The notes under the pieces are model-generated. The model saw only the letters and a program-made list of their open reading frames with translations, had not been told where the DNA came from and made no database searches. A stretch of 21,959 nucleotides of DNA, taken from a virus. The stretch's first letter is position 1. Each line of letters begins with the position of its first letter. Shown here in pieces: positions 2,778 to 21,293 of the stretch. The position numbers and the translations under genes were made by a program. The stretch spans positions 1-21,959 of the IMG/VR virus record IMGVR_UViG_3300031278_000017. The stretch is one strand, 5' to 3'.

Positions 2778-3679
2778 AGGGACTCGAGACGTTCGTTGAC
2801 TGGTTCGCCGGCATCGGCGGCTTCCACATCGCTGCCGCAAGATGCGGACTTAAATGCGTAGGAGCGTGCGACAATGACAAATGGGCTAGAGAGACATATA
2901 AGACAAGATTCGGACACTATCCGGAGTTCGAAGACGCAAGACAGGTCGACCCCAGAGAAGTTCCAGACCATGACCTCTTCTGCGGAGGCTTTCCCTGTCC
3001 GTCCTTCAGCATCGCCGGCAAAAGGCTCGGCTTCCAAGACGAAAGAGGCACCCTCTTCTTTGAGATATGTAGTCTCCTTGATATCAAGCGACCGAACTAC
3101 GCCATCCTTGAGAACGTTACGGGACTTTTGTCGGCGCCTTTCGTTGACGAGAATGGACTCACAATCCCTGAGACTTCCGGATGGGTTTTCTACAGAATCC
3201 TGGAGTCGCTGGGGGACTTGGGGTATAATGTGCAATGGCAGGTGCTTTACAGCCGACATTGGGTTCCCCAAGACAGGCGAAGAGTATACATTATCTGCAG
3301 TTCTCGAGAAGTCCCCGTCCCTGAAGTATTTCCGCTCTTCGATGCTGCAGGAGAGATGGCAGGCTATCCTCGGGGGCAAGGAGGCGCCATAGGTAAACTG
3401 CACAAGCACCAAGGTGGCCGAGTGTACGGGCCAGGCAGCATAGGCCCAACGCTAGATACGGGACATGGCCCGCTTATTGACACGGGCACCGGCCTAAGGC
3501 TAGCGACACCAATCGAGCGCGAGCGGATGCAGGGCTTCCCAGACGGATGGACAGAGGGCGTCAGCGACCGCCAGCGAGAGAGGCAAACGGGAAACGCAAT
3601 CACAGTTCAGGTGGCAACCGAAGTCATACGGCGCCTCGTGGAGTGCCACAACAGCCAAGGGAGGCGTCGGGCGGCCTGA
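2774..3679 (+). CDS. dcm: C5-cytosine-specific DNA methyltransferase
   Basis: This 301-residue enzyme should transfer a methyl group from S-adenosylmethionine to C5 of cytosine in a specific DNA sequence. The motifs appear in canonical order: motif I WFAGIGGFH (SAM binding, 10-18), motif IV GFPCPSFS with catalytic C75, motif VI ENV (113-115), motif VIII QDRRRVYII (166-174) and motif X GNAITVQVATEVI (273-285). The region between VIII and IX that holds the target-recognition domain (about 180-245) is short, so the recognition site is probably simple. No cognate restriction enzyme is evident, so it looks like an orphan phage methyltransferase that protects against host restriction. Its base composition and codon choice are visibly less GC-rich than its neighbours, which suggests separate acquisition. 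It starts inside the nuclease stop codon region. Confidence 0.95.
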   Translation: MKGLETFVDWFAGIGGFHIAAARCGLKCVGACDNDKWARETYKTRFGHYPEFEDARQVDPREVPDHDLFCGGFPCPSFSIAGKRLGFQDERGTLFFEICSLLDIKRPNYAILENVTGLLSAPFVDENGLTIPETSGWVFYRILESLGDLGYNVQWQVLYSRHWVPQDRRRVYIICSSREVPVPEVFPLFDAAGEMAGYPRGQGGAIGKLHKHQGGRVYGPGSIGPTLDTGHGPLIDTGTGLRLATPIERERMQGFPDGWTEGVSDRQRERQTGNAITVQVATEVIRRLVECHNSQGRRRAA

Positions 3680-3682
3680 CGA

Positions 3683-3702
3683 GTACCTTAATACTAAGGA
3701 AC
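3683..3702 (+). other. Small hairpin after the methyltransferase
   Basis: CCTTA (3686-3690) pairs with TAAGG (3695-3699) around an ATAC loop, and after one A-A mismatch the stem continues with GT (3683-3684) against AC (3701-3702). There is no T-run, so it is not a classical terminator. It sits directly 5' of the dispersed repeat copy at 3702 and with it fills the gap between the methyltransferase and the next gene. Confidence 0.4.
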
Positions 3703-3726
3703 CCAGGATTCGCGACACGCGAGTCC
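3702..3726 (+). repeat. Dispersed hairpin repeat, copy at 3.7 kb (forward)
   Basis: The copy contains CCCAGGATTCGCG (3702-3714). GGATTCGCG (3706-3714) pairs over nine positions, one of them a G-T wobble, with CGCGAGTCC (3718-3726) across an ACA loop. The same 12-mer CCAGGATTCGCG recurs at 12150 and 17392 and on the opposite strand at 17236. Here similarity to the other copies stops at the 12-mer. It is followed two bases later by the SD AAGGAGG of the gene at 3744, so as RNA it would sit in that gene's leader. Confidence 0.75.
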
Positions 3727-3743
3727 AGAAGGAGGACGGAGCA

Positions 3744-4160
3744 ATGAGCGCAAAGAAGCAGACAGCACCAGAGCCAAAGGAAGAGGCCAACGAGGCCGAA
3801 CTGTTCGACGAGGAAACGGCGGAAGCCGAATCCCTGGCGGACCTGGCTGGAACCGGCGGCGGCGTCTACGAGGGCGACCTGCTGACGATGGAAGCCATCA
3901 AGGACCGCAAGCACACGGTCATCGACTTCAAGTTCCTGCCCAGCACGTTCAAAGAAGGGGGGACGTACGCCTGCATCCAGATTAAGCTCCGCGGCGCGCT
4001 GCAGGTCGTCAACACCAACGCGACCGTGATACTCAAAGGTCTGGCTAACGTCGACAAGACAAGACTGCCAATCGTGAACGCTTTCGTCATGCGGATGGGC
4101 AAAAACAAGCGGGAGTACTGGGACTTCGCCGGCGCGGACGAGCTAAAGCAACTGAAGTAG
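3744..4160 (+). CDS. Hypothetical protein with an acidic N-terminal tail; possible DNA-metabolism accessory
   Basis: This 138-residue protein has an acidic, probably disordered first third (EEANEAELFDEETAEAE) and a folded part from about 45 (HTVIDFKFLPSTFKEGGTYACIQIKL) to the end. The folded part alternates short beta-like stretches, which would suit an OB-type or similar small beta domain, but I cannot assign a family. It lies after the nuclease and methyltransferase and before the replication genes, where phages often carry a single-strand DNA-binding or recombination mediator protein. That role is inference from position only. The acidic tail is at the N-terminus, unlike typical SSB proteins, where it is C-terminal. 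AAGGAGG (3729-3735) lies eight bases before the ATG, directly after the repeat hairpin. Confidence 0.75.
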   Translation: MSAKKQTAPEPKEEANEAELFDEETAEAESLADLAGTGGGVYEGDLLTMEAIKDRKHTVIDFKFLPSTFKEGGTYACIQIKLRGALQVVNTNATVILKGLANVDKTRLPIVNAFVMRMGKNKREYWDFAGADELKQLK

Positions 4161-5828: not shown

Positions 5829-7707
5829 CAGCTTGTTCAAGTGGGCAGACTATTACCTGTCCATCGGATGCTCGGTCATCCCGCTCAGGGAAGGCAAGCT
5901 GCCGGCGGTCGCATGGAAGGAGTTCCAGGCGAGACGCGCCGACAGGGTGGAACTAATGAAATGGTTCGTCGACTCCGGTTGGGGGATGGCCATCGTCTGC
6001 GGCAGCGTGTCGGGCAATCTGATAAGGCTTGACTTCGACGACCCGAAGGACTACGAAGACCTTTGGGGCAGTCTTCCCCCGGACGCGCCAATATTCAAGT
6101 CTCAGAGGCAGGGAGGTGGCTATGGCGTCTTGATGCGGTCGCCAGAATCGGTGCCCACGCTGCCCCAAAAGACCTTCAAGAACAGACCCAAGCTGGAGGT
6201 CAGGGGCGAGGGCTCAATCACGGTTGTCCCGCCCACTCCGGGCTACAAGTGGCTCAAGCTCGAGCAGGTTCCTCGGCTGCACGTGCACAAATGGCTGAAG
6301 GACGTGCTCGACTTTGACCTGTTCAACAGAGACAGACTGGCGAGGTCGGTAGAGACATCCGCCACGGACGAGCTATCGTCACTGCTCAAGGAGACCACCG
6401 AAGGCGAGCGCTCGAACAACCTTGTGAGGATAGCCGGAATGCTCAGGGCCAGAGGCATAGACCTGGAGACCGCGCTGGAAGTCATGCAGCACAACTTCGA
6501 GGAGCACTGGCCGCAAGACGGCATGGACTGGGACGAGGCTAAGGGCATCTTCGAGGGCGGGTTCAAGCGGTACGCCCATGAGGGCGTCAGGCTGACCGGG
6601 CAAAGACAGAGGCAGGCGTCGTCAGACGAGGACGAGGAGGGCGAGGAGGTCCAGTCGATGCGCCTTGACGAGATACGGGCGCCGACAGAAAGCGACTCGC
6701 TCATAGAGAAGCTGGTGCTCGCCGGCGAGGAGGGCAACACGGTCATCGCCGCCCCGGCAAAGATGGGCAAAACATCGCTGGTCCTCGACGCCTCGATAAC
6801 TGCCACGAGAGGGCTGCCGGCCTGGGGGCTGCTCCATGTTCGCGGGCCGATGAGGATAGCCTACATCGACCAAGAGCGCAAGTTCCTCCAGATACGGGAG
6901 AACCAGCTGCTCATGTCTTCGGTGATAGGCGACCCGGACTACTCGAGGTTTCTGCTGCTGGCGCAGAAGACCGGCCAGTTCCAGGTGGACCACCGCCGGA
7001 TTATGTCCCAGCTGTACGCGAGGCTGGAGGAGTTCGGCCCAGACCTGGTAGTTCTGGACGGATGGGGCTGGTTCGTGGGCCACAGGGCGAGCGACCCGGA
7101 GTACGTCAGACCGGCGATGTCGTGGCTCAAGTCGCTGCGCCAGTCACTTGGCTGCGCCACGATAATAATCCATCATTTCAAGAAGACCCAGTACGCCTCT
7201 GGCAGGGAGACCATAGAGATTGACTCTCTCGACCGCATAGAGGGGCTGAAGAGGCTGGTCGACCAGGCGCAGACGGCTCTGGTGTACACGCCAATCCCGG
7301 GTTACGACACGTTCAACCTGCTGACCGGCAGGACGAACAAGCCGGCGTGGGACCCGCCGAAGACCGTGATAGACTACGACCACACGACCCTGACGCACAG
7401 GGCCGTGTCGGCCGACGAGGGCATGGAGCTGTTCGACCCGGAGACATACAGGGACCTGTGGGGCAAGGAAAGCAACGAGAGCCGCCGCGTCAAGGGCATG
7501 ATGAACGTCATACGCAACCGCAACGGCTGGTCGCAGACGGACCTAGCCGCGCGCCTAGGCGTCGACAAGTCCCAGGTGTCGCGGTGGTACTCAGGCAGGC
7601 AAAACCCGGGACAGGCCGCGATGGAGCGGATGGACGAGCTCTACAGGAAGGCGAAGGAAAAGCCGCTCAAGTCGACGAGGATGCCGAGGAAAGCGGAGGG
7701 ATTGTGA
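5809..7707 (+). CDS. Prim-Pol / RepA-type helicase replication protein with C-terminal HTH
   Basis: This 632-residue multidomain replication protein has three parts. Residues 8-165 form a bifunctional primase-polymerase domain (CSVIPLREGKLPAVAWKEF, metal-binding LDFDDP with D75/D77, and LEVRGEGSITVVPPTP). Residues 300-520 form a RecA-fold RepA/DnaB-like helicase with Walker A APAKMGKTS (315-323), Walker B PDLVVLD (411-417) and IIIHHFKK (452-459). Residues 563-615 form an XRE-type helix-turn-helix (WSQTDLAARLGVDKSQVSRW). It should prime and unwind at the origin; the HTH may bind the origin or its own promoter. Oddity: the usual GGxH of Prim-Pol motif II reads GGGY (102-105), so the histidine seems replaced by Y105. 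An acidic linker (273-280) joins primase and helicase. The SD is weak (AGAGGA) and the gene overlaps its upstream neighbour. Confidence 0.9.
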   Translation: MQPPKTNSLFKWADYYLSIGCSVIPLREGKLPAVAWKEFQARRADRVELMKWFVDSGWGMAIVCGSVSGNLIRLDFDDPKDYEDLWGSLPPDAPIFKSQRQGGGYGVLMRSPESVPTLPQKTFKNRPKLEVRGEGSITVVPPTPGYKWLKLEQVPRLHVHKWLKDVLDFDLFNRDRLARSVETSATDELSSLLKETTEGERSNNLVRIAGMLRARGIDLETALEVMQHNFEEHWPQDGMDWDEAKGIFEGGFKRYAHEGVRLTGQRQRQASSDEDEEGEEVQSMRLDEIRAPTESDSLIEKLVLAGEEGNTVIAAPAKMGKTSLVLDASITATRGLPAWGLLHVRGPMRIAYIDQERKFLQIRENQLLMSSVIGDPDYSRFLLLAQKTGQFQVDHRRIMSQLYARLEEFGPDLVVLDGWGWFVGHRASDPEYVRPAMSWLKSLRQSLGCATIIIHHFKKTQYASGRETIEIDSLDRIEGLKRLVDQAQTALVYTPIPGYDTFNLLTGRTNKPAWDPPKTVIDYDHTTLTHRAVSADEGMELFDPETYRDLWGKESNESRRVKGMMNVIRNRNGWSQTDLAARLGVDKSQVSRWYSGRQNPGQAAMERMDELYRKAKEKPLKSTRMPRKAEGL

Positions 7708-9932
7708 TGGCTGAGCGCGTGCTAAAAGAGAAGAGGCATCCGGGAAAGCCTGGTCCGTACTGCGGCCACTGCCCGTACAAGGACGAGAAGCTAATCAAGC
7801 ACGGAGGCCGCAAGAGCGGCGTCATGCTGGTCGGCGCCGGTCCGGGGGAAGCCGACGTCAGGACAGGCCGCAGGTACTCTGGCCTCACCGGCCACAGGCT
7901 GGCGAAGCAGCTCGGGAGGGCGGGCCTGATATTCGACGACTGCTGGATTGACGACGTGGTGCAGTGCCACGTGCCGAAGACCAGGAAGCCCACCAAGACC
8001 GCCATGCGGTGCTGCAGGCCTTTGCTCGAGAAGGCGATGGCCGAGTGCCAGCCGCACACGATAATAACCCTGGGCAGTCCAGCCCTTGAGGCGTTCTACC
8101 CGGGAGGCAAGATAGGCGTGTACCACGGCCAGAGAATCCAGGCCGAAGACTATGTGCTGGTGCCCATGTATCAGCCCAACGCCTATGACGACAATCCCGA
8201 CCTGCTGAGGGTCATCGCGCAGGACTACTCCGGGCTCAAGAAGAGACCGATGCTCAAGACCAACGACGGCGACTACTCGCTGGCCGTCAAAGCCGGCTGG
8301 CCGAGCATAGCCAACGACCGCTTCGCAGTGGACACGGAGACCAAAGGCCTGGACCTCAGGTCGGAGATGCTTGGGGCCAGCTTCAGCGATTCCCCGGGAA
8401 CGGGGACGTACTACGAGGCGAGGCTGCTCCGGCACCAAGACAACGTGCCGGACCACGCCACCATGCACCACGCCAAGTTCGACCTGGGTATCCTGGACAG
8501 CAACGGTGTCGTGCGCGTAGACGACTGGGAGGACGTGGACGACACGCTGCTTCTGGCGTACTGCATGAACAGGAAGCCGCTGGGGCTGAAGTCGCTCGTC
8601 GCCCAGGAGCTCCACGTGGAGATGACCAAGTTCGCCGACGTGGCCGAAGGCGACACCCTAGAGGGCGTCGACCTGGAGGACGTGAGGGACTACGCGGGCG
8701 GAGACGCGGACATGACCCTGCAGCTCTGGGACTGCCTGTGGAAGGCGGCCGTCTCGAGGGAGAGGCGGCTGTACGAAACCGTAGAGAAGCCCCTGCCGAG
8801 GATAATGGCCAAGGCCCAGCTGGCCGGCGTCCTGGTGGACGTGCCGTACTTTGAGCAGATGTCCGTGTCCCTGGACGAGCAGCTCAGAGACCTGTGGACG
8901 TCGATGCGGAGGCTGGACGGATGCGAAGGCCTGATGTGGGAGGACCTGACGTCGCCCGCCCGACTCGCCAAGTTCCTTTCGCGCCTGCTCAAGAGGAACG
9001 TCCCCAACACGGAGAGGTTCGCCTTGGAGAGGCTCGAAGGCAGGCACCCGGTCATGCCGATGATTCTGGAGTTCAGGTCGGCGTACAAGCTGAAGACGGC
9101 GTTCGTCGACAGCATACTCAAGCTGCAGCGCGGAGGCCTCGTGTTCCCCGACTTCAACCAGACCGGCACCGGGACCGGCCGCTGGTCGTGCTCGAAGCCG
9201 AACATGCAGCAGCTGCCGAAGCGCACCGACAAGACGGTACGCAAGGGATTCCCCGCCCCGGAAGGCTACGTGGTGGTCTGCCTCGACAACAGCCAAATTG
9301 ACCTGAGGTCGCTGGCCTACCTGAGCCAGGACTACGAGCTGTGCAGGATATTCGAGCTGGGCCTCGACGCCCACGACGAAACGGCCGCCACGCTCGAGGA
9401 CGAGAAGGACAAGGAGCTCGCCAGGAGGCTGGCCAAGACCGCCAACTTCCTGACGGTGTTCGGAGGCGGGGAAGACGCCCTGGCGATGAAGTGCAGGGTT
9501 CCGCTCGAGAAGGCCCACGCGTTCCTCGAGGCCCACAGGGCCAGGTTCACGGGCATATACGAGTGGGTGGCCCGGACGCACAAGAGCCTGCGGGAGACCG
9601 GCTACGTGGAGACCGTCTACGGCCGCAGGCGGTACATTCCGAAGATATACACGGGCGAGTTCAGGGCCGCCGAGAGGGAGGGCCAGAACATGCCTGTCCA
9701 GGGCACGTCGGGGGACGTCCTGAAGCTGCAGCTCGCGGCGGTGGCCGACATCTGCGTGCCGTTCAGCCAGGTGCACGACGAGCTGGACTTCTACCTGCCG
9801 GAGAGGCACGCCAAGGAGGAGGCCCGCGAGCTAATCCGCAGGATGGAGTCGGTGGACTGCCCGTTCGCCCTGAAGGTCGAGGCCACGATGGGCCCGAGCC
9901 TCGGGGAGACGGAGAAGATAACGTTCGACTGA
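7707..9932 (+). CDS. polA: Family A DNA polymerase with 3'-5' exonuclease and N-terminal UDG-like domain
   Basis: This is the 741-residue replicative polymerase. Residues 15-180 resemble a family 4 uracil-DNA glycosylase with an apparent 4Fe-4S set C19, C22, C87 and C103 (C102 adjacent). Residues 203-345 are a DnaQ-like exonuclease with DTET (209-212), KFD (257-259) and YAGGD (329-333). Residues 355-741 are the polymerase: motif A LDNSQIDLR (526-534), O-helix RRLAKTANFLTVFGG (573-587) and motif C VHDELDF (689-695), all intact. There is no 5'-3' exonuclease domain, as is common in phages. The UDG-polymerase arrangement is known from SPO1-type phages. The ATG at 7707 overlaps the helicase stop (TGATG). 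The frame is open back to 7347, but that would overlap the helicase gene by 360 bases. The UDG part lacks expected catalytic residues. Confidence 0.95.
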   Translation: MAERVLKEKRHPGKPGPYCGHCPYKDEKLIKHGGRKSGVMLVGAGPGEADVRTGRRYSGLTGHRLAKQLGRAGLIFDDCWIDDVVQCHVPKTRKPTKTAMRCCRPLLEKAMAECQPHTIITLGSPALEAFYPGGKIGVYHGQRIQAEDYVLVPMYQPNAYDDNPDLLRVIAQDYSGLKKRPMLKTNDGDYSLAVKAGWPSIANDRFAVDTETKGLDLRSEMLGASFSDSPGTGTYYEARLLRHQDNVPDHATMHHAKFDLGILDSNGVVRVDDWEDVDDTLLLAYCMNRKPLGLKSLVAQELHVEMTKFADVAEGDTLEGVDLEDVRDYAGGDADMTLQLWDCLWKAAVSRERRLYETVEKPLPRIMAKAQLAGVLVDVPYFEQMSVSLDEQLRDLWTSMRRLDGCEGLMWEDLTSPARLAKFLSRLLKRNVPNTERFALERLEGRHPVMPMILEFRSAYKLKTAFVDSILKLQRGGLVFPDFNQTGTGTGRWSCSKPNMQQLPKRTDKTVRKGFPAPEGYVVVCLDNSQIDLRSLAYLSQDYELCRIFELGLDAHDETAATLEDEKDKELARRLAKTANFLTVFGGGEDALAMKCRVPLEKAHAFLEAHRARFTGIYEWVARTHKSLRETGYVETVYGRRRYIPKIYTGEFRAAEREGQNMPVQGTSGDVLKLQLAAVADICVPFSQVHDELDFYLPERHAKEEARELIRRMESVDCPFALKVEATMGPSLGETEKITFD

Positions 9933-17464: not shown

Positions 17465-19024
17465 ATGAAGACGATGACGGCAAAATACAGCATGCCGGAC
17501 AACATTCCGGACTACATCAAGAACCTGCCTGAGGGAGCGCAAAGAGTCTTTGTCGATGCGTTCAACGGCGCCATGGACGACGGTGCTTCTGAGGAGGAAT
17601 CAAGGATGGCCGGATGGGGAGCGGTCAAGAACGTCTACGAAAAAAGCGGAGACGAGTGGGTGCGCAAGGGCGCCGAACTGACCACTCTCAGGTACGTCTC
17701 GATGATAGGCGAGGCGCCTCTTGACGGGTCGAACGAGTCGGCGGTCCAGGTGTTCAGGACCGGAACTTTCAGGCATCCTCTGTACGGCAAGTTCACGCTG
17801 ACCGTAGACGACCTTCGCGTGATGGTGGCCAACTTCATCGCACACAGGCCGAAGCCTCCGACCGAGCTGTCCGTTGACTACGAGCACATGAGCGCAGTCG
17901 GCAACCAGATAGCCCCGGCCGCGGGGTGGGTGAAGGACCTCGAGCAGCGGGGTAACGAGCTGTGGGCGACAGTGTCGTGGACGGACAAGGCCGCCGAAAT
18001 GATACGCGCCAAGGAGTACAGGTTCATCAGTCCTGAATGGCACATGCACTACAAGGACAAGGAGACGGGCAAGGACATCGGCGCATGCCTGTTGTCCATG
18101 GCCCTGACCAATAGGCCGTTTATAGAGGGCATGCAGCCGGTCATGCTAAGCGAGAAACTCGAGGAATACAACGCTAGCGTGCTGATGCTCAGCGACAGAA
18201 TGCTGGGGCTATTCATGCCGCAAGACAAGGAGGGTAACATGAAAGGAGCAGACTGGGACACAGAGTATATCAATGACCTGCCGGATAAGGCCTTCGCATA
18301 CATCGCCCCCGGAGGGGAAAAGGACGAGAAAGGGAAGACCGTGCCTAGAGACAACCGTCACCTGCCGTACAGGAACATGGACGGGTCTACTAACCTGGAC
18401 CACCTGAGGAACGCGCTGGCCAGACTTGACCAGACGTCCCTTCCCCAGGAGGCGAAAGCAGAGGCAAGGAAGGCGCTCGAAAAGGCCGCCGAAGAGGCGG
18501 GCGTTGGAGAGGCTGGCGATAAAGAACCCAACAAAGGACAGGAGGTAACTGTAGTGGAAGAGCAAATCAGGGAAATACTCGGACTGGCGGCGGAGGACGA
18601 CATACTGGCCGCAATCAAGGACCTCAAGGCCAAAGCCGACGCCGCCGGTGAAGCCGAGCAGCAGAAGACCGAAGCGGAGCAGGCCAGAGAAGCCGCAGAG
18701 ACAAAGCTCCAGGCGGCCGAGGCCAAGCTGGCATCCGGCGAGGTGGACGCAGACGTCAACCAGGCGCTGAAGGACGGGCACATACTGCCCAAGCAGGTGC
18801 CGTGGGCCAAGGACCTGCGAGCCAAGGACCCGACAGGGTTCAAGACGTTCCTCGCGTCAGCACCGAAGATAGGGCCAGAGGGCACGATAATCGGGCGAGA
18901 GTCCGAGGAAGGCGCCATTCAGCTGACTGAAAAAGAGATTGAGGTCGGCAAGCGGATGGGCGTCTCCAAGGAAGAGCTGGTCGAGCAAAAGAAGAGGGAC
19001 GCAGCCGCCAAGACAACGGCGTAG
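17465..19024 (+). CDS. ChaB-domain / Mu gpI-like prohead protease / scaffold polyprotein
   Basis: This is a 519-residue head maturation protein. Residues 7-68 match ChaB (MPDNIPDYIKNLPEGAQRVFVD, MAGWGAVKNVYEK, EWVRK). Residues 75-228 match the Mu gpI protease family (VDYEHM 138-142, PAAGWVKDLE, EYRFISPEW 184-192, MALTNRPFIEGM). Residues about 265-345 hold a small module (YINDLPDKAFAYIAPGG, HLRNALAR) that I believe resembles DUF6582-type insertions. Residues 364-519 are a charged, coiled-coil-rich scaffold. The protease would cleave itself, the scaffold and perhaps capsid during assembly. Two internal in-frame starts with strong SDs (18239, 18554) suggest separate scaffold products, as with I and Z of Mu. 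ATG 17465 is set by AGGAGGG five bases upstream. Confidence 0.9.
   Translation: MKTMTAKYSMPDNIPDYIKNLPEGAQRVFVDAFNGAMDDGASEEESRMAGWGAVKNVYEKSGDEWVRKGAELTTLRYVSMIGEAPLDGSNESAVQVFRTGTFRHPLYGKFTLTVDDLRVMVANFIAHRPKPPTELSVDYEHMSAVGNQIAPAAGWVKDLEQRGNELWATVSWTDKAAEMIRAKEYRFISPEWHMHYKDKETGKDIGACLLSMALTNRPFIEGMQPVMLSEKLEEYNASVLMLSDRMLGLFMPQDKEGNMKGADWDTEYINDLPDKAFAYIAPGGEKDEKGKTVPRDNRHLPYRNMDGSTNLDHLRNALARLDQTSLPQEAKAEARKALEKAAEEAGVGEAGDKEPNKGQEVTVVEEQIREILGLAAEDDILAAIKDLKAKADAAGEAEQQKTEAEQAREAAETKLQAAEAKLASGEVDADVNQALKDGHILPKQVPWAKDLRAKDPTGFKTFLASAPKIGPEGTIIGRESEEGAIQLTEKEIEVGKRMGVSKEELVEQKKRDAAAKTTA
18239..19024 (+). CDS. Nested in-frame product of the protease gene (linker module plus scaffold)
   Basis: The SD AAGGAGGG (18227-18234) lies four to five bases before the ATG at 18239, in frame with the protease ORF at residue M259. 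The product would be 261 residues: the small DLPDKAFAYI module plus the scaffold, without ChaB and protease. The start falls exactly at the boundary after the protease domain, which supports design rather than chance. Expression is not proven. Confidence 0.45.
   Translation: MKGADWDTEYINDLPDKAFAYIAPGGEKDEKGKTVPRDNRHLPYRNMDGSTNLDHLRNALARLDQTSLPQEAKAEARKALEKAAEEAGVGEAGDKEPNKGQEVTVVEEQIREILGLAAEDDILAAIKDLKAKADAAGEAEQQKTEAEQAREAAETKLQAAEAKLASGEVDADVNQALKDGHILPKQVPWAKDLRAKDPTGFKTFLASAPKIGPEGTIIGRESEEGAIQLTEKEIEVGKRMGVSKEELVEQKKRDAAAKTTA
18554..19024 (+). CDS. Nested scaffold protein starting at an internal GTG
   Basis: AGGAGGT (18540-18546) lies about eight bases before a GTG at 18554, in frame at residue 364 of the protease ORF. 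The product would be 156 residues, starting VEEQIREILGLAAEDDILAA, then a Gln/Glu/Ala-rich coiled coil (EAEQQKTEAEQAREAAETKL) and a basic tail. This copies the Mu I/Z and lambda C/Nu3 arrangement, in which the scaffold is made from the 3' end of the protease gene. Confidence 0.55.
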   Translation: MEEQIREILGLAAEDDILAAIKDLKAKADAAGEAEQQKTEAEQAREAAETKLQAAEAKLASGEVDADVNQALKDGHILPKQVPWAKDLRAKDPTGFKTFLASAPKIGPEGTIIGRESEEGAIQLTEKEIEVGKRMGVSKEELVEQKKRDAAAKTTA

Positions 19025-19070
19025 GCGCCTTCGGACAACAGACAAAATAATCGAAGGAGAACAACCGAAC

Positions 19071-20123
19071 ATGAACCGATTAGCGAAAACCTTTCGCAGG
19101 TTCGGCCTGATAATGGCCATGGTGATGCTCATAGTCTTGGGCATCCCCGGGGCATTGTCTGCCGACACACAGATACCCCGCAAGGAGGCGGGACTGCAGA
19201 GCTATCCGGTGGCCGCGTCAGCGACCATCTACAAAGGCGCGATGGTAGGCTCTGACGGAGACGGCTATCTTGTGCCAATGTCGACGACCATCACTTTCAA
19301 GTTTGTCGGCATTGCGTATGAGCAGATTGACAACTCATCCGGCAGCGACGGCGACAAGAACTGCCGCGTCCACACGTCGGGCGTATTCAAGCTGACCGCG
19401 ACAAGCATTGCACAGACAATGGTCGGCCAGCCAATGTTCGCGATTGACGACGCCACCATGGACGACTCTGGCACCAGCTACCAGCTCATTGGCGTTCTTG
19501 TCGAATACTCAAGCGCGACAAGCGGCTGGGTTGACATTGGGCAACGACCAGGAATACGCGGTGTCGCCGACAACCTGCAGATACTCACAGACACCGACAC
19601 AAAGAACGTGCGCATAAACAGCAGGAGTTACACTGCCACAAGCGGTGACGTTACGGCTGTCCAGTCTAAGCCGAATGTAGCAACGGGCGGGACCATTGGC
19701 GTCACCGGCATAGAAGTATCGCCTCGATTCGCCGAAGGCGCCGCAGGCTCGAAGCTTGTTGGCATCATGTCCAATCCTATACTGAAAGGCAGCGGCGACC
19801 AGGGCGACCTGAGCAGCGCCATGAGATGCTACGAGGCCAGGCTCGAGAGTGACAGCGGCAGCACCAGAACCGTCGCCGAAGCCTACTGTCTGCACTGCAT
19901 GCAGGCGCTCCACGGCACGGTAACAACGGGGCCATACCCGATAGCGGTCGATGCGGGAGGCGGCAACGTTGCCTGGGCTGGCTTCGCAAAGCTGCCTGAC
20001 GATAGCCAAGTGGCTAACGATGAGGATACGGGAGACGCGAACACAATCGCCGGCTACATAAAGGTCCTTATCGGAACCAACACCCGCTACATATACACAT
20101 ACAGTGTATTGCCTAGTGCCTAG
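19071..20123 (+). CDS. Capsid decoration-like structural protein with N-terminal signal peptide
   Basis: This 350-residue protein starts with a textbook signal peptide: basic MNRLAKTFRRF, hydrophobic GLIMAMVMLIVLGIPGAL and a likely cut after ALSA (about residue 31). The following 35-150 resembles phage head-decoration or cement proteins (IPRKEAGLQSYPVAASATIYKGAMVG, FVGIAYEQIDNSSGSDGDKNCRV). A second Gly/Thr-rich part (about 165-350) includes GIEVSPRFAEGAAGSKLVGI and RTVAEAYCLHCMQALHG. Its place between scaffold and major capsid fits a virion role. AAGGAG lies 11 bases before the ATG. An export signal on a capsid protein is very unusual. The in-frame extension back to 18939 overlaps the scaffold gene and is rejected. 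A membrane-anchored protein is the main alternative. Confidence 0.75.
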   Translation: MNRLAKTFRRFGLIMAMVMLIVLGIPGALSADTQIPRKEAGLQSYPVAASATIYKGAMVGSDGDGYLVPMSTTITFKFVGIAYEQIDNSSGSDGDKNCRVHTSGVFKLTATSIAQTMVGQPMFAIDDATMDDSGTSYQLIGVLVEYSSATSGWVDIGQRPGIRGVADNLQILTDTDTKNVRINSRSYTATSGDVTAVQSKPNVATGGTIGVTGIEVSPRFAEGAAGSKLVGIMSNPILKGSGDQGDLSSAMRCYEARLESDSGSTRTVAEAYCLHCMQALHGTVTTGPYPIAVDAGGGNVAWAGFAKLPDDSQVANDEDTGDANTIAGYIKVLIGTNTRYIYTYSVLPSA

Positions 20124-20152: not shown

Positions 20153-20341
20153 ATGAAAAATATGGACTTAGTTGAGCTCAAGAAGGACAGACAGAATCTT
20201 CAGGTGATGCTTGAGGTCGAGCAGCAGAAGCTGATAGATACTCAAAACGCTTGCCTAAGATTCGAGGGCGCCCTTACTTATAACTCGCAGTGTATAGCCT
20301 TCCTTGAGCAGGAAGACGAGCCGGACAAGCCCGTTTCCTAA
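20153..20341 (+). CDS. Small coiled-coil protein
   Basis: This 62-residue protein has a strong heptad-like stretch (MDLVELKKDRQNLQVMLEVEQQKLIDTQ) and an acidic end (EQEDEPDKPVS). AAGGAG lies about eight bases before the ATG. Small coiled-coil proteins are common between head genes in phages and may assist assembly. No family is recognised. Codon use is more AT-rich than the genes beside it. Confidence 0.7.
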   Translation: MKNMDLVELKKDRQNLQVMLEVEQQKLIDTQNACLRFEGALTYNSQCIAFLEQEDEPDKPVS

Positions 20342-20369: not shown

Positions 20370-21293
20370 ATGACATTAGTAACTTCAGACTTCCTCGCCG
20401 GCCTGATGACAAACTACCGGGCAATCTTCACCAAGGCGCTCGACGAAGCGTTCGCCGAGAAGCCGCTCTACACGGAGATAGCCACGAAGTTCGACAGTCT
20501 TACCGCCGAGGAGAGCTACGGATGGCTCGGGGCTAACCCGACGATGTCGGAGTGGAAGGACAAGAGACAGGTAAAATCACCCAAGGCCTATGACTACACT
20601 CTGACGAACAAGCACTACGAGGGCACCATATCCGTCAACCGCGATACCTATGACGACGACAAGTACGGGATGATTGCCCCTCGAATCCGCGGGCTCGCCA
20701 ACAGGGCGGTCCGCCACTTCAACCAGGTGATTGTCAGCCAGCTGGACGACGGCGCCACGCTGCTCGCGTATGACGAGGCCGCCTTCTTTGGCACCTCCAG
20801 GACCATCGGCGACAGCGGGACCATCGCCAACCAGCTCACCGGCAACTATTCCGACTCCGGCGACGAGATTCGGGCGGCCCTGGCTGCCGCGTTCGTGGCG
20901 ATGCAGAACTTCAAGGACGACCAGGGCATTGTCATGGGGCTGATGCCCGACACCATCGTCTGCTCGCCCACGATGCTCATCCCCATCCGCAATGCCCTTC
21001 TGCCCGGTGTGGCGGGGACTGTACGGCCTGAGGCCGGGATATTCGCCGACGGGCTCATCCACCCGTCGCCATGGATTGACGGCGCGGCCAAGACCTGGTA
21101 CGTGCTTTGCACGAAAGCGGTTGAGGTGCGGCCGATAATCTTCCAGCTCCGCAAGAACGTGGAGTTCGTGTCCATGGACAAGCCCGACAGCAACAGCGTG
21201 TTCATGCAGAATGAGTTCTACTATGGCGTAGACGACAGGTTCGCCTCCGGCTACGGCGACCCGCGAACCGCCATCCAGATAGTCAACACGTAA
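20370..21293 (+). CDS. Major capsid protein (Mu gpT-like)
   Basis: This 307-residue protein matches the Mu-type major head subunit family: an N-terminal LMTNYRAIFTKALDEA, the YGWLGANPTMSEWKDKRQVKSP segment, then YEGTISVNRDTYDDDKYGMIAPRIRGLANRAVRHFNQVIVSQL, a central PDTIVCSPTMLIPIRNALL and a C-terminal NEFYYGVDDRFASGYGDPRTAIQIV. It should form the HK97-fold shell of the head. The length is typical. The SD AAAGGAGA precedes the ATG. It follows protease/scaffold and decoration genes in the usual order. The gene has the lowest apparent coding irregularity and is probably the most highly expressed gene of the window. Confidence 0.93.
   Translation: MTLVTSDFLAGLMTNYRAIFTKALDEAFAEKPLYTEIATKFDSLTAEESYGWLGANPTMSEWKDKRQVKSPKAYDYTLTNKHYEGTISVNRDTYDDDKYGMIAPRIRGLANRAVRHFNQVIVSQLDDGATLLAYDEAAFFGTSRTIGDSGTIANQLTGNYSDSGDEIRAALAAAFVAMQNFKDDQGIVMGLMPDTIVCSPTMLIPIRNALLPGVAGTVRPEAGIFADGLIHPSPWIDGAAKTWYVLCTKAVEVRPIIFQLRKNVEFVSMDKPDSNSVFMQNEFYYGVDDRFASGYGDPRTAIQIVNT

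Follow-up and report, generated by a model that had tools for sequence, protein, structure and literature searches.

The cement ('head fibre') protein of an uncultured virus with a Mu-like head begins with 31 residues that closely resemble a textbook Sec signal peptide and have their own Shine-Dalgarno sequence. This kind of cement is already known; the new part is the export leader, its fusion onto the ancestral N-terminus and its repeated acquisition. A genuine-looking export tag, together with several separate gains, suggests that the outer coat of the head is routed via the host membrane and not merely added within the cell. We put forward tentatively, and lean slightly against, the wider proposal that a phage lineage builds part of its head via host secretion. 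Its cement/fibre would be exported by Sec, decoration would take place not in the cytoplasm but at the membrane or upon lysis, and this habit would have evolved repeatedly in one cement family; the G005 major capsid protein has an amphipathic leader too.

The window and its head module

The window, that is, the whole stretch of DNA analyzed (IMGVR_UViG_3300031278_000017, 21,959 nt), holds a Mu-like head module on a fragment of an uncultured virus. The module begins with the small and large terminase genes and a Mu-type portal gene, the end of which gives a weak MuF match, and continues with Mu-I-type protease, cement gene, 62-aa ORF, and gpT-type major capsid protein, which places the cement gene between the genes for the head protease and the major capsid protein. 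The features are the following:

17465..19024, + strand: head maturation protease (Mu I type) with an N-terminal ChaB domain (PF10123, 3e-46; PF06150, 2e-13)
19054..19059, + strand: Shine-Dalgarno AAGGAG of the cement gene, 11 nt upstream of the ATG (from the sequence)
19071..20123, + strand: cement ('head fibre') gene, 350 aa
19071..19106, + strand: n-region, residues 1-12, MNRLAKTFRRFG, net +4 (translation; charge scan)
19107..19145, + strand: h-region, residues 13-25, LIMAMVMLIVLGI, uncharged (hydrophobicity; AlphaFold2 helix 2-22; character conserved in alignment A1)
19146..19163, + strand: c-region PGALSA, with the predicted signal peptidase I cut at A31/D32 (19163/19164; -3,-1 rule)
19149..19151, + strand: ancestral start codon position, now GGG (G27; alignment with the leaderless starts MALTKD, MTALSAD, and MSLTAD)
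19152..19538, + strand: cement domain, residues 28-156 (phrog_1731, E=5e-28; PF09956; AlphaFold2; Foldseek)
19569..20120, + strand: exchangeable C-terminal module, residues 167-350 (found alone or on other N-termini elsewhere)
20153..20341, + strand: small ORF of 62 aa between the cement and capsid genes (ORF with Shine-Dalgarno)
20370..21293, + strand: major capsid protein, gpT type, leaderless (MTLVTSDFL; PF10124, 1e-54; start checked)

Profile searches with the 62-aa ORF gave no family match. A ChaB-like start of the protease was also present in the relatives L077 and L078, and was not found in the protease of L070. Positions 7347-9932 form a single open frame with a uracil-DNA glycosylase domain, a 3'-5' exonuclease and a family A DNA polymerase; its true start is probably near 7700.

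The window terminase shares only about 25% identity with its kin in named phages. A search for prophages in GTDB genomes found none with the cement profile; a single distantly related capsid protein turned up, in a genome of the Lachnospiraceae (L054).

Identity of the cement protein

The preliminary description called the product decoration-like, and profile, fold, and gene order, together with homologues that occur in virions, make the assignment to the decoration proteins sound. The phrog_1731 profile ('virion structural protein') matched residues 28-156 with E=5e-28; PF09956 (Phage_cement_2) reached 21.6 bits, under its curated cutoff of 24, and PF22758 also matched weakly. AlphaFold2, run on a 22-row alignment, predicted a helix at residues 2-22, low confidence at 26-38, and a pLDDT of about 90 over most of 40-155. 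Searching the PDB by sequence gave no match, and the fold search alone succeeded: Foldseek with the predicted domain retrieved T1, Sf11, HFTV1, Pam3, TW1, phi29 gp8.5, and lambda gpD. The model has a cement-type fold, and its highest-ranking PDB matches were, with few exceptions, capsid structures or the bases of head fibres.

The homologous domain occupies the same position between protease and gpT capsid genes in the siphophages with Mu-like heads D3112 (p34), PaMx73 (ORF h), JBD25 (gp37), and vB_PeaS-P1 (ORF35). These phrog_1731 proteins have about 130 aa, start with M-(T)-A-L-T/S, and possess neither a leader nor the large C-terminal module. Mass spectrometry detected PaMx73 ORF h (PMC4378225) and ORF35 of vB_PeaS-P1 and vB_ThpS-P1 (PMC5488378) in virions; the presence of this cement in virions is known for leaderless homologues only. 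The JBD30 'minor capsid protein' gp39 was rejected as a template, as it appears to be a different gene, numbered after the capsid protein gp38 (PMC11445458).

Each leader-carrying contig had one cement match, and as far as the current data show, the cement of the phage is thus the protein with the export-type leader. These contigs yielded no paralogue lacking the extension, and a second, leaderless cement within them was rejected; most are fragments, and such a gene could lie elsewhere in the genome.

Relatives differ by exchange of the C-terminal module, which fits the expectation for a display domain. It was found in L004, L005, L006, L011, and L080, in L004 and L005 as a small gene of its own that follows the capsid gene, and in L006 fused to another N-terminal domain; it also occurs in Virus Rctr197k_040, and one contig (G009) has it twice. 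Other domains replace it in L026, L028, L031, L019, and L033. Its AlphaFold2 model was poor, with pLDDT below 50 over most of the module. The replacement in L019 (1956-3536) consists of long repeats, TLSIGGTSTLNGTVSCNGNL..., which are beta-solenoid-like and give a weak bactofilin match.

The leader and its start

In the 19071-19166 frame, residues 1-31 and the Asp that follows read MNRLAKTFRRFG-LIMAMVMLIVLGI-PGALSA|D. The classical n-, h-, and c-regions and cleavage site that had been described were borne out: a net charge of +4 precedes an uncharged core, a G-I-P helix breaker follows the h-region, and L29-S30-A31|D32 satisfies the -3,-1 rule. The best 12-mer of the h-region scored 3.05 (Kyte-Doolittle), and of all stop-free 27-mers in the window only 0.6% had a core of at least 2.6. 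Among the 32 genes called there, an N-terminus of this kind occurred on no other convincing gene. The window protein and its leader-bearing relatives share the sequence features of a Sec signal peptide of the signal peptidase I type, and Sec targeting is a prediction that the sequence supports well. A Tat signal was rejected, the S/T-R-R-x-F-L-K motif being absent from the window and from its relatives, some of which have an RR pair; a lipoprotein signal was rejected as well, since neither the window nor the relatives have a Cys near the site that could serve as the +1 residue of a lipobox. An export signal on a capsid protein had been called paradoxical, and with both the cement identity and the export-type leader supported, the paradox is real.

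Homologues without the extension begin M-(T)-A-L-S-A-D, so ALSA|D is older than the leader. The protein of L029 (59% identical) starts with MSLTADKEV directly after a Shine-Dalgarno and has no leader, and L043/L065, of the same clade as the window cement, are also leaderless; the leader is therefore not essential to this type of cement. Starts of distant homologues are MTALSADRE, MTALAANKE, MALTKDRN, MTTLAANKP, and similar. As the alignment reads, the leader is fused precisely ahead of the old N-terminus, M-A-L-S-A-D, and the old start codon of the window became GGG. The family N-terminus, placed by aligning JBD25 MALTKDRNTPRR to the window GALSADTQIPRK, corresponds to residue 27/28. The predicted cut falls about four residues inside it, and the mature part does not begin exactly at the family N-terminus, as had been thought. 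Here lies the chief correction to the preliminary description: the site fits the -3,-1 rule and signal peptidase may use ALSA|D, but the motif was inherited from a leaderless ancestor, so its conservation is no proof of cleavage.

Judged by sequence only, the leader is the translated N-terminus. The Shine-Dalgarno places the start at the leader ATG, and the ancestral position carries GGG and has no Shine-Dalgarno of its own; an internal start in the window was rejected on these grounds, and removal of the leader through choice of start site, which the preliminary description had considered, is unlikely.

Leaders in relatives

Another contig, L002, has an identical copy of the leader-bearing stretch. 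When homologues were checked for the same extension they divided into two sets, one leaderless and one with a leader, the latter comprising six further orthologues (L026, L028, L030, L031, L019, and L033) whose cement domains are 53-63% identical. The six leaders share the n/h/c plan and differ in sequence: MKKHLQSFMLLMVMAMILAFNIPLVLTAD in L026, MKRKLSTVRRLLGLMALMVLITMGFPASLSAD in L028, MKKLTTAIRRAGLLALLTMLVVLGVPTMALSAD in L030, MKGRMYRIAVAVTMMILVAFGIPMALSAD in L031, and MKQKLHRFCLLMAMVMLIALGIPAALSAD in L019; that of L033 follows the common plan and is longer than the others. All extended relatives (6/6) have a Shine-Dalgarno shortly upstream of the leader start and none ahead of ALSAD. L29, A31, and D32 are invariant in alignment A1, and an ATG persists at the ancestral start position in L030, L031, and L113.

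The dN values were 0.26-1.3 for the leader versus 0.18-0.46 for the cement domain, and the best 12-mer hydrophobicity was at least 2.6 in every relative. In simulations, neutral drift to equal divergence held the hydrophobicity in only 9-26% of cases per lineage. Fast divergence of residues with kept hydrophobicity is the behavior of a signal peptide, unlike that of a contact arm, and these values indicate that selection maintains the leader, a part of the best explanation.

A scan for distant homologues, made from a three-row alignment, gave 80 loci, 59 of them distinct. Outside the window clade, hydrophobic leaders were present in L113-117 and L148/152, found by the scan, and in L049. The leader of L113-117, MKKSTILLIGLVAAVFSIGAYA|G..., has a textbook AYA site; that of L148/152 is long and doubly hydrophobic and stands ahead of GTTLAAN, the old Met being replaced; and L049 has MSLILMTIGLLMLFGSITK ahead of ALSAN. 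The L148 and L049 leaders resemble anchors more than cleavable signals. L113-117 and L148/152 keep the gene in its place, flanked by those for head protease and capsid; in L049 it follows a probable protease gene, and the contig breaks off within it. The leader trait required six changes on a tree of 78 cement domains, at least four of them forced by well-supported branches, so acquisition happened several times. By this reading of the tree, the same head gene has repeatedly acquired a membrane-targeting leader.

Proposed mechanism and alternatives

Our explanation is a cement that is targeted by Sec, held as an envelope pool and loaded late onto expanded capsids; taken whole, we judge it evenly balanced between right and wrong. 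We infer the localization, cleavage, and decoration timing of the window cement as follows. Residues from about 28 to 156 would form a trimer-type cement base that binds the outside of the expanded capsid, and residues 167-350 an exchangeable display module. The Sec-type signal peptide, fused ahead of the ancestral M-A-L-S-A-D and presumably kept by selection, would direct the protein, as it is being made, to the membrane of the host via Sec. The protein would there be anchored, or cut at ALSA|D, and then held as an envelope pool. Finished heads would be loaded at the membrane or during cell lysis, and the display module would reach virions late, not in the cytoplasm.

JBD30 procapsids carry no decoration (PMC11445458), and Dec of phage L binds P22 heads in vitro (PMC7602432). 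Cements bind expanded heads only and can bind from outside, which makes late external loading plausible. A fast-folding cement might escape Sec, which would count against export.

An uncleaved anchor would tether the cement to the inner membrane, where it would recruit or hold capsids, either staying on the cytoplasmic side or meeting them when the membrane ruptures. The two hydrophobic stretches of L148, by which the domain could end up back in the cytosol, the leader of L049, which has no N-terminal positive charge, and the hydrophobic or amphipathic leaders on major capsid proteins of the related loci L005, L059, and L024 speak for such an anchor. We still consider it unlikely, as the window clade and L113 have the N-terminal positive charge, and most members the helix breaker and acceptable cleavage site, that typify a cleavable signal. 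A role outside the virion, in which the exported protein would act on the host cell or its siblings through surface display, adhesion, or superinfection exclusion, seems improbable: it would agree with the export signal and with the variation of C-terminal display modules among relatives, whereas the conserved cement domain, the protease-capsid position in lineages with flanks, the homologues located on virions, and the failure to detect a second cement in the carrying contigs all point back to the capsid.

We give equally little credence to a leader that is made and not used for export, the protein folding in the cytoplasm and its hydrophobic N-terminus either serving as a capsid-contacting arm or being trimmed by the prohead protease. 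The ALSAD region is indeed an ancestral N-terminal arm, and other capsid genes of the group also gained N-terminal leaders. However, a capsid arm has no need of a positive n-region, an uncharged core of 12-14 residues and a helix breaker, and residue identity that is free while hydrophobicity is kept indicates a signal peptide, not a contact arm. It is very improbable that the leader is an artefact of mis-assembly, of a frameshift, or of a wrong start, with a real protein beginning near residues 27-32. The ATG retained at the ancestral position in L030, L031, and L113 would allow this; the identical contig L002 and the in-frame, diverged leaders of six relatives led us to reject an assembly error, and the Shine-Dalgarno ahead of the leader only and the GGG in the window argue against a later start.

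Comparison with known systems

By the textbook account, HK97-type tailed phages assemble their heads entirely in the cytoplasm. Cements of the type of Pam3 gp6, E217 gp24, the TW1 capsid stabilizing protein and lambda gpD (Pam3, TW1, and lambda gpD being among the Foldseek matches) are generally joined to capsids in the cytoplasm, and we know of no signal peptide in any of the four. In phi29 gp8.5 a capsid-binding N-terminal base is followed by a C-terminal fibre, as in the window protein, and this base was among the top fold matches; the prediction for the window's C-terminal module is of low confidence and no fold relation to gp8.5 is claimed for it. To our knowledge gp8.5 has no leader.

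The coat proteins pVIII and pIII of filamentous phages are similar in how they work and are not kin: they bear signal peptides and are passed across the membrane prior to assembly. Filamentous phages extrude through the envelope, whereas the window phage has an HK97-type tailed head, and both the proteins and the virions are unrelated. Among the open-access papers searched we found no precedent for an export leader on a decoration protein, a scope that does not prove absence. If the Sec-export explanation is true, the outer capsid layer could be supplied from the envelope side, and phages could display on their heads domains that were exported or had folded in the envelope, with decoration tied to lysis. 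Gain and loss of the leader within one protein family offer a clean test for the timing of decoration.

Leaders on major capsid proteins

Two gpT-type major capsid proteins have leaders of about 22 aa with their own Shine-Dalgarno: MLRKILSKVTSALTALHTNEVGA|LVTSDFL in L059 (about 2935-3921) and MRKITKWLLAFAAEIHANEVGA|IVTSDFL in L024 (about 849-1844). Both leaders are amphipathic, are not classical signal peptides, and were absent from the other relatives checked. L005 encodes at 1761-2900 a major capsid protein from a different family, phrog_212, with a hydrophobic N-terminal extension, MHKVRTLCRQALTIALFAFTLPVRMMLLD, ahead of LSGGHW, the sequence with which three of its homologues start. The gene that follows it encodes the C-terminal module of the window protein.
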